NCBI RefSeq assembly: GCF_000242435.1
Contig: NZ_JH591188.1
Location: forward strand, 418,488 to 482,487
Source of the DNA: Dialister succinatiphilus YIT 11850
GTDB lineage: Bacteria; Bacillota; Negativicutes; Veillonellales; Dialisteraceae
DNA: 64,000 nucleotides
Direction of reading: 5' to 3'
Shown here: positions 27,995 to 30,324 of the stretch, piece by piece
How positions within the stretch are numbered: the stretch's first letter is position 1
How the letters are laid out: each line of letters opens with the position of its first letter
Made by a program: the position numbers and the translations under genes
The notes under the pieces: generated by a model
Told to the model about the DNA's origin: nothing
Seen by the model: only the letters and a program-made list of their open reading frames with translations
The model's database searches: none

Positions 27995-28861
27995 TTATGA
28001 ATTCTTAATATTTCCTGCCACAATGCCTGCTCCGATAAGGAAGATGCCTGCCCACTGGATGGGGGTGATGGATTCACCCAGCACCAGAAGGGCCATGACG
28101 AGGGCCACAGGAAGTTCCGATGCGGCCAGCACGGAGCCAAGACCGGGGCCTACATGGGGCATGCCCCAGGCCAGAAGAAAAGGCGGCAGGGCTACGCCGA
28201 AAATACCAAGGAGGAAGCCATAGGGGAGGAGAAGGGGCCAGGAGGAAAAATCAAGGAGAAAGACCGGCGGAAGGAGAAGGAAGGTCAGCAGGGTATCACC
28301 GGTGGACATGAGAGCTCCCTTCAGGGCAGGGGCTATGCCTTTTCCCAGAAGGGAACTGGCACACATCATGGCAGTGTAGGAAAGGGCGGAAAGAAGGCCC
28401 CACACCATGCCGGAGGAAAAGGAAAAGTCGGCGCCTTCATCCAGAAAACCGGCTGAGAGCAGGGTGCCTGTGAGGCAGAGAATGATGGAAAGGAGCTGCT
28501 TCTTTTCCGGCAGCTTTTTAAAAATCAAAGATTCCGCCGCCGTACCCATCCAGATAGACTGGAACAGGAAAACCACTGCCAGGGAGGCAGAGAGACTTTC
28601 CAGGGAATGGTAGTAGAAAATGGTGGTGAGCGCCATGGGAATGCCAATGGCTGCAAGGGACAGAATCTGGAAGAAAGAAGGAATCCGTCTTACGGTAAGT
28701 ATGGCGGAAAGCCATAGAAAGAGCATGCCGAAAAGACACTGCATACCGCTCACATCGGCGAGAGTGAGGCCAGCGGCATAGGCGGTTTTTACAAAGGTGG
28801 AAAGAATGCCGTAGCAGGCGCCGGCGGAAAATACGATAAATGCATAGAATCCTTTATGCAT
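27995..28861 (-). CDS. EamA/DMT superfamily transporter
   Basis: About 288 residues from ATG 28861 (GGAGGAAATC site); the ORF is open to 28996 but that part has no site. Ten hydrophobic segments in two EamA halves; FSAGACYGILSTFVKTAY at the start and LGSVLAASELPVALVMALLV with GESITPIQWAGIFLIGAGIV in the second half are characteristic of drug/metabolite transporters. Substrate unknown. Confidence 0.88.
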   Translation of the reverse strand: MHKGFYAFIVFSAGACYGILSTFVKTAYAAGLTLADVSGMQCLFGMLFLWLSAILTVRRIPSFFQILSLAAIGIPMALTTIFYYHSLESLSASLAVVFLFQSIWMGTAAESLIFKKLPEKKQLLSIILCLTGTLLSAGFLDEGADFSFSSGMVWGLLSALSYTAMMCASSLLGKGIAPALKGALMSTGDTLLTFLLLPPVFLLDFSSWPLLLPYGFLLGIFGVALPPFLLAWGMPHVGPGLGSVLAASELPVALVMALLVLGESITPIQWAGIFLIGAGIVAGNIKNS

Positions 28862-29028: not shown

Positions 29029-30159
29029 TTATTCAGCTTCCAGGGAGTCAAGAAAAGTGCTCATGGCCTGGAGGCCTTTTTTTAATGTGTCCCTGTCGGC
29101 GGCATAGCCGATACGCATGGAACGGGGTTCATCGAAGCAGTCCCCCGGGGTTACGAAGGTGCCGCAGCTGTCATACATGCGGCGGCAGAGGGTATAGGAA
29201 TCTATGGGAAAATCATAATACACCAGTGCGGTGGTACCGGCTTTGGGCTTCACATAGGAAAGGCGAGGTTCTTTTTGAATCCAGTGATCCAGGATATCCA
29301 GATTTTCCCGGATGATTTTTTTATTTCTTTCCAGAATCTGATTTTTGGAAGCCAGGGCCAGCGCGGCAATGGCTTCGTCCATCATGCCGCAGCTGATGAG
29401 GTTGTAGTCACGATGGGACCAGAACTGCTTTAAGGCATCTTTATCATGGGTGGCAATCCATCCCAGACGGACGCCGGCCAGAGAAAACACTTTGGACATG
29501 GAAGAAGTGGAAATGCCTTTTTCGTACATGTCCACAATGGACGGCTGCCATTCGTCATCCTGGGTGAGATGGCGGTATACTTCATCTACCAGAAGGTAGG
29601 CGTCAGATTTTTTGGCAATGTCCACCACTTTCTTCAGAATTTCGGGAGACATCAGGGCGCCGGTGGGGTTGTTCGGATTATTGAGGCAGATCATCTTCAC
29701 ACCGCCTCGGGCCATTTCTTCCAGTTCCTCCAGGTCCGGGAGATAGCTGTTTTCCTTTTTCAAATGCAGGATTTCCACCTTTGCTCCCAGGGAGGCAGGA
29801 ATGGAGTAGAGCTGCTGGTAAGAGGGCATGATGGAAATGACCTTGTCTCCCGGATTGATAAGGGAATAAAAAACATGGTGGTTAGCCCCGGAAGCACCAT
29901 GGGCAGGAACGATTTCATCGGGCCTGATGGTGTGGTACAGGGCAGCAATGCCTTCCTTCAAATCAGGAGAACCTTCTATATAGCCATAGGTGAGACGGCG
30001 GGCACAGAGTTTGTTAAGGAATGATTCCTTATGGGTTCCCGACAGTTCAAAAAGTTCGTCCAGTGAAATGGAATCCACGCAGGTTTCGGCAATATTGTAC
30101 CGGGCACCTGTTTCATAGGCATTCATCCATTCTTCGACAGCAAAGGGTTTAATGTTCAT
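29029..30159 (-). CDS. PLP-dependent aminotransferase, class I/II
   Basis: 376 residues. Fold-type I hallmarks: YGYIEGSPDLKEGIAALY near 60, LNNPNNPTGALMSPE near 160, LVDEVYRHLTQ near 190 and the PLP-binding Lys near residue 223 in STSSMSKVFSLAGVRLGW; a C-terminal Arg in RSMRIGYA binds the substrate carboxylate. It is closest to aspartate/aromatic aminotransferase-like proteins; the amino acid is not clear. It has its own promoter and a leader that folds into two mutually exclusive structures, so it is likely regulated by termination control. Confidence 0.88.
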   Translation of the reverse strand: MNIKPFAVEEWMNAYETGARYNIAETCVDSISLDELFELSGTHKESFLNKLCARRLTYGYIEGSPDLKEGIAALYHTIRPDEIVPAHGASGANHHVFYSLINPGDKVISIMPSYQQLYSIPASLGAKVEILHLKKENSYLPDLEELEEMARGGVKMICLNNPNNPTGALMSPEILKKVVDIAKKSDAYLLVDEVYRHLTQDDEWQPSIVDMYEKGISTSSMSKVFSLAGVRLGWIATHDKDALKQFWSHRDYNLISCGMMDEAIAALALASKNQILERNKKIIRENLDILDHWIQKEPRLSYVKPKAGTTALVYYDFPIDSYTLCRRMYDSCGTFVTPGDCFDEPRSMRIGYAADRDTLKKGLQAMSTFLDSLEAE

Positions 30160-30173
30160 GATATAACCTCCTT

Positions 30174-30295
30174 AAAAAAAAGAGGATTTATTCCTGCCTT
30201 TCAATGGTTTTCGCCATATTACCTGCAGCAGGAATAAACCCTCTTGGCTCCCTATCCGGTGACAGGGAAGAGTTTCTTATGAAATTACACATATA
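30174..30295 (-). promoter_or_regulatory. Switching 5' leader with terminator, class not recognised
   Basis: On the - strand a stem AAACTCTT/AAGAGGGTTT (30275-30268 with 30245-30236) encloses CCCT-loop-AGGG. Its 3' arm is also the 5' arm of a 17-bp terminator stem (AGAGGGTTTATTCCTGC, 30244-30228, with GCAGGAATAAATCCTCT, 30197-30181) followed by seven T. The two folds exclude each other, as in a riboswitch or attenuator. I could not match it to T-box, SAM, lysine, TPP, glycine or preQ1 consensus features. Confidence 0.55.
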
Positions 30296-30324
30296 ATAAT
30301 ACATGGGGAAAAAGATTCTGTCAA
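30296..30324 (-). promoter_or_regulatory. Promoter of the aminotransferase leader
   Basis: TTGACA (30324-30319), 17-base spacer, TATTAT (30301-30296) on the - strand. Confidence 0.75.

Follow-up and report, generated by a model that had tools for sequence, protein, structure and literature searches.

A leader preceding a PRK07324-family aminotransferase gene in Dialister succinatiphilus is a probable Gd4v-type riboswitch candidate

The locus analysed lies within a 64,000-nucleotide stretch of Dialister succinatiphilus DNA (the window) and comprises a PRK07324-family aminotransferase gene on the minus strand (ATG at 30159), preceded by a leader of about 115 nt that carries a 19-bp terminator at its end. 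Features were assigned as listed, with the basis of each assignment in brackets.

30296 to 30324, minus strand: sigma-70 type promoter (-35 TTGACA at 30324-30319, -10 TATTAT at 30301-30296)
30268 to 30275, minus strand: AAACTCTT, 5' strand of an alternative, possibly antiterminator, stem (folds of truncated transcripts)
30249 to 30268, minus strand: hairpin 1 of the aptamer, TCCCTGTC-ACCG-GATAGGGA (six of its seven pairs covary in 40 orthologous leaders)
30227 to 30245, minus strand: terminator 5' strand AAGAGGGTTTATTCCTGCT, the foot of which can pair with 30275-30268 instead (fold and alignment)
30197 to 30226, minus strand: conserved apical core within the terminator (alignment of leaders and variant comparison)
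30174 to 30198, minus strand: terminator 3' strand and U run (fold)
30167 to 30173, minus strand: Shine-Dalgarno sequence AAGGAGG of the aminotransferase gene (sequence)
29029 to 30159, minus strand: PRK07324-family PLP-dependent aminotransferase, 376 aa (NF005593, 535 bits, cut-off 476)
27995 to 28861, minus strand: EamA (DMT family) transporter, the next gene downstream on the same strand

The promoter had a 17-nt spacer and matched 11 of 12 consensus bases, from which the start was inferred, and the good promoter of the original prediction was borne out as a near-consensus TTGACA-17-TATTAT arrangement. The hairpin placed by that prediction inside the 5' part was located as CCCTGTCACCGGATAGGG at 30267-30250 (minus strand), with kissing-loop bases ACC at 30260-30258, and AAGAGGGTTTATTCCTGC occupied 30245-30228 on the same strand. 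The 3' terminator strand was GGCAGGAATAAATCCTCTT (30198-30180), with a T run down to 30174; the terminator was recovered as predicted, its length being 19 pairs in the fold rather than 17. The apical core contained GCAGGT (kissing GGT at 30223-30221), TGAAAGG (30203-30197), and an apical hairpin, D2, in which ATGG (30217-30214) was paired with CCAT (30207-30204). The full-length leader had a minimum free energy of -44.1 kcal/mol, compared with -25.8 (sd 3.2) for shuffles (z = -5.7).

The closest orthologue of the aminotransferase noted was that of Dialister sp. UBA1703 (85% protein identity). The window enzyme was found to be related to GntC (8FFT) and capreomycidine synthase, keeping GntC residue E9, the PLP lysine and R346, with TC in place of the cyclases' SS and without H250 (all mapped by eye); E9, T26 and C27 were invariant across 13 homologues of the window enzyme, and E9 of GntC is thought to tune guanidine in arginine cyclases. 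Co-transcription of the aminotransferase and EamA genes was considered uncertain because a terminator-like hairpin (28903-28881) precedes the latter. Directly upstream of the leader, on the same strand, lies a gene for a putrescine-ornithine antiporter (PRK10655, 30442-31791, minus strand). Elsewhere, the window contains a THF riboswitch (Rfam RF01831, 35286-35409, plus strand), before an open reading frame resembling a FolT-type membrane transporter, and a T-box leader (Rfam RF00230, 39646-39890, minus strand).

Protein orthologues were gathered from 80 public loci and the upstream regions were read, about half of them having the same leader, and 40 orthologous leaders were aligned. In this alignment 93% of cells were paired, with changes on both sides in 29 of 38 pairs (counts that ignore relatedness among the leaders), and the covariation score was 0.55, where shuffles scored 0.26 and slid controls no higher than 0.18. 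The check that had been proposed, covariation in leaders of orthologous genes, came out positive, with covarying pairs in hairpin 1, in the terminator and in the apical hairpin that it carries. CACCGG in hairpin 1 and AGGU in the upper terminator were invariant across the 40 leaders, and the apical hairpin was present in all but one. The kissing pairs ACC/GGU showed no variation (40/40), and were co-changed in distant relatives, to GCC/GGC in L128 (SugE gene), L181 (MATE gene) and L202, and to CCC/GGG in L194 and L195, before genes of PALP-family PLP enzymes. Hairpin 1 and its loop bases were conserved, with covariation, over distant Firmicutes and Synergistetes. From the covariation and kissing-loop data, the aptamer was therefore assigned to hairpin 1 and the upper terminator and not to the 40-base 5' part; an aptamer-like part of about 40 bases, as originally proposed, did not agree with the positions of the conserved bases, which were those of the hairpin-1 loop and of the upper terminator (GCAGGU ... 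UGAAAGG), joined by ACC/GGU. A model, R1, scored the window leader, itself among its members, at 59.6 bits (E 8e-10 in its own genome). Scanning the whole phylum gave few matches, and scans of the families and genera near known carriers yielded further ones in greater number.

No Rfam 15 family matched the window leader at its gathering score, and permissive thresholds also gave nothing meaningful. The leader, unclassified in the original prediction, was instead placed in the Gd4v motif, a guanidine-IV variant first found upstream of a transaminase gene and for which PRK07324 is the commonest gene (Lenkeit et al. 2022, PMC9788692). It is very probably a Gd4v riboswitch candidate, an ON switch that controls the PRK07324 aminotransferase gene at the level of transcription; the class is already published and remains an orphan riboswitch candidate. 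As described by its authors (PMC9788692), Gd4v consists of a first hairpin linked through a pseudoknot to a second one that is a terminator, with an extra apical hairpin D2 and a base other than G at D1. Its consensus has further sequence features, D3 and D4, which the authors give in a figure; the comparison made here covered D1 and D2. The motif is located before PRK07324 transaminase, GNAT or MATE genes, and ligand-induced read-through is put forward there as a hypothesis. It is also reported to be enriched in gut bacteria.

The window leader contained the Gd4v core, namely hairpin 1 with a CACCGG loop, a terminator with an AGGU internal loop, and ACC/GGU pairing between them. D2 was present as ATGG/CCAT in the window and as ACGG/CCGT, a compensatory change, in the UBA1703 leader. 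D1, placed from differences between leaders rather than from the published figure and in an alignment that is one base out of register for the window, was an A, the third base before the final GG of UUGAAAGG; at this position most Gd4v leaders had U or C, and the guanidine-IV leaders of MATE genes had G. Downstream, NF005593 was matched above its cut-off, and the Rho-independent terminator expected of a Gd4v RNA was present in the fold, read-through being a prediction. The window leader shared with Gd4v the PRK07324 gene, the kissing-loop hairpin pair with the terminator second, D2, a D1 other than G, and the genus Dialister, and differed in the 3' strand of its core, UUGAAAGG where the Gd4v consensus has UUAUAAGG, and in an unusually long complementarity of the 5' flank to the foot of the terminator. 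The UUGAAAGG core was seen in two Dialister leaders only, those of the window and of UBA1703. Counted from A30275, the window RNA reproduces the published construct lengths, 95 nt to position 30181 and 162 nt to 43 nt past the start codon, an agreement that is no more than suggestive of the window holding the same RNA as the published Dialister constructs. The earlier reading of a switching leader before an aminotransferase gene was well supported, because the leader belongs to a published riboswitch candidate backed by covariation.

By analogy with the guanidine-IV and Gd4v papers, the window leader is proposed to act by ligand-driven antitermination. Without ligand, the nascent RNA would complete the 19-bp terminator, and the U run would be where RNA polymerase stops. 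Once ligand is bound, the hairpin 1 loop ACC would pair with the internal-loop GGU of the upper terminator hairpin, and the resulting kissing structure would block closure of the terminator foot, so that transcription would enter the gene. In the Dialister leader of the window, pairing of the 5' flank with the terminator foot over 8 bp may contribute to maintaining the read-through state.

This alternative stem was examined since a simple antitermination mechanism would follow from it. In folds of truncated transcripts, AAACTCTT paired with GAGGGTTT (30243-30236); most predicted folds of 52-104-nt RNAs had the stem, either in full (7-8 bp) or in part, and it disappeared once the terminator foot was transcribed, the full-length RNA folding into the terminator. 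The exclusive pairing noted originally was accordingly reproduced in predicted folds, and the stem is real in the window sequence. Across the leaders, an 8-bp stem was found in a few only, including the two Dialister ones, and elsewhere complementarity between flank and foot was mostly 3-5 bp, pyrimidine against purine. The native helix score was 10.2, compared with 8.6 for permuted pairs (78 leaders), and 10.1 compared with 8.6 when 42 leaders less than 70% identical were used (p about 0.0005), with no excess over permuted pairs for shifted flanks; a tree-simulated null gave p = 0.027. A free duplex search of 20-nt flank against 20-nt foot gave p = 0.47, and was too loose to inform. In independent sister pairs, tested by exchange between sister leaders on the tree, flank/foot covariation was absent (9 for, 14 against, p = 0.66), and the same test on hairpin 1 gave 26 for and 1 against. 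A conserved antiterminator helix is not claimed, because this control for ancestry removed the covariation. The stem, originally taken as the hallmark of a switch, was long in the window (8 bp) and mostly shorter in the family, with no covariation in sister pairs; it is possibly a helper in Dialister, and is not established as a family feature.

A conventional antiterminator, in which the AAACTCTT flank pairs with the terminator foot and the ligand just stabilises the helix around hairpin 1, draws on the prevalence of this minimum-energy pairing among the truncated window transcripts and on the excess of native over permuted scores, which survived the tree-simulated null. It was nevertheless judged rather unlikely, given the contrast between the flank/foot and hairpin 1 sister pairs, and the excess may partly reflect shared ancestry together with a pyrimidine-rich flank opposite a purine-rich foot. 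The Gd4v paper mentions neither an antiterminator nor an alternative stem in its main text (PMC9788692). In 2020 the discoverers of guanidine-IV called its antitermination mechanism unresolved, and a later description has the kissing loop and the terminator competing sterically; the competing stem in Dialister offers a concrete test of antitermination of this type.

A guanidine-IV riboswitch proper (mepA / GGAM-1; Lenkeit et al. 2020, PMC7736828), sensing free guanidine, shares with the window leader the overall fold, with two hairpins, kissing loop and terminator-based ON logic, and the same model also recovers guanidine-IV leaders before MATE and SugE genes. This assignment is nonetheless very improbable: guanidine-IV has G at D1, no apical hairpin, SugE and MATE genes, and binds guanidine (PMC7736828), whereas the window leader has D2 and no G at D1, and, as stated in the Gd4v report, a transaminase gene has never been seen with guanidine-IV (PMC9788692). 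That report further describes D. succinatiphilus RNA as not modulated by guanidine up to 10 mM, and D. succinatiphilus constructs as giving only the terminated product without ligand, with no compound on the authors' list active; one Gd4v example bound guanidine weakly, and none was properly switched by any ligand (PMC9788692). Guanidine was rejected as the ligand on the base at D1, the presence of D2, and the published probing of the unresponsive Dialister RNA.

Attenuation by a leader peptide or a protein (ribosome stalling, T-box-like control, or an RNA-binding protein) would suit a leader that carries a terminator and precedes the gene of an amino-acid enzyme, and an open frame does begin at the promoter edge, but the ATG of this frame sits at the predicted start site without a ribosome-binding site, the conserved features are RNA structure and loop bases, and no T-box was matched at the leader by the scan that detected one elsewhere in the window. 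Such attenuation is highly unlikely, and its leader-peptide form was rejected on the position of the ATG and the conservation at the RNA level. An ordinary terminator merely ending upstream transcription, with hairpin 1 present by chance, is scarcely credible even though intergenic terminators are common, as a strong promoter of its own lies just upstream, and conserved, covarying hairpin 1 and loop bases in distant Firmicutes and Synergistetes refute it.

Divergent relatives were also found in Dialister. In the same genome, a second, weaker relative (G000:C3:17297-17399; L123, 1501-1603; 28.5 bits) adjoins a PRK07324 paralogue and precedes genes for two half-size EamA proteins, and the arrangement is the same in a related Dialister genome (G005:C173:8376-8478; L122). 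Both have a divergent Gd4v-like core without the UAUAA segment.

With the leader taken as a Gd4v candidate, gene contexts were compared across the class. A second aminotransferase follows in 14 of the 36 Gd4v-PRK07324 loci examined (for the one scanned, the nearest models included PRK08912 and GntC, both below cut-off), an ornithine-cyclodeaminase/mu-crystallin protein in 8 of 36, and an argininosuccinate lyase family protein in one. Other Gd4v-type leaders precede genes for GNATs, one of them then followed by half an EamA protein, and MATE transporters. A Gd4v-like leader with a weak score (L121, 1501-1597, minus strand, 47.9 bits) precedes a gene for a homologue of the lysine exporter LysO (Lys_export), a context that hints at a basic amino acid as ligand. 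Together, the neighbouring aminotransferases, ornithine-cyclodeaminase-like enzymes, GNATs, and DMT, MATE and LysO exporters suggest that the ligand is a basic or guanidino amine, most probably one that the downstream enzymes process and the neighbouring transporters export. Arginine, agmatine and canavanine are reported as already excluded (PMC9788692), and none of the papers found in a literature search names the Gd4v ligand. More tentatively, Gd4v might sense an arginine-like guanidino or basic amino acid, such as a hydroxylated form of arginine or an arginine antimetabolite from the diet, and turn on the genes that transaminate, acetylate and export it, with the Dialister UUGAAAGG core and the version without UAUAA as further specificity variants. 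The contexts with a second aminotransferase, an ornithine-cyclodeaminase-like reductase, argininosuccinate lyase, and LysO or EamA exporters narrow the search for the ligand, the identification of which would point to a metabolite sensed and eliminated by gut microbes.

Two further kinds of Gd4v-like leader were noted. Those with CCC/GGG kissing bases (L194, 1501-1593, minus strand; L195, 1501-1589, plus strand) are possibly another specificity variant, and a second Gd4v copy in Blautia sp. MSJ-19 (L158, 1501-1601, minus strand), in which the hairpin-1 loop is damaged (CTATCAGG), is probably a decayed duplicate.
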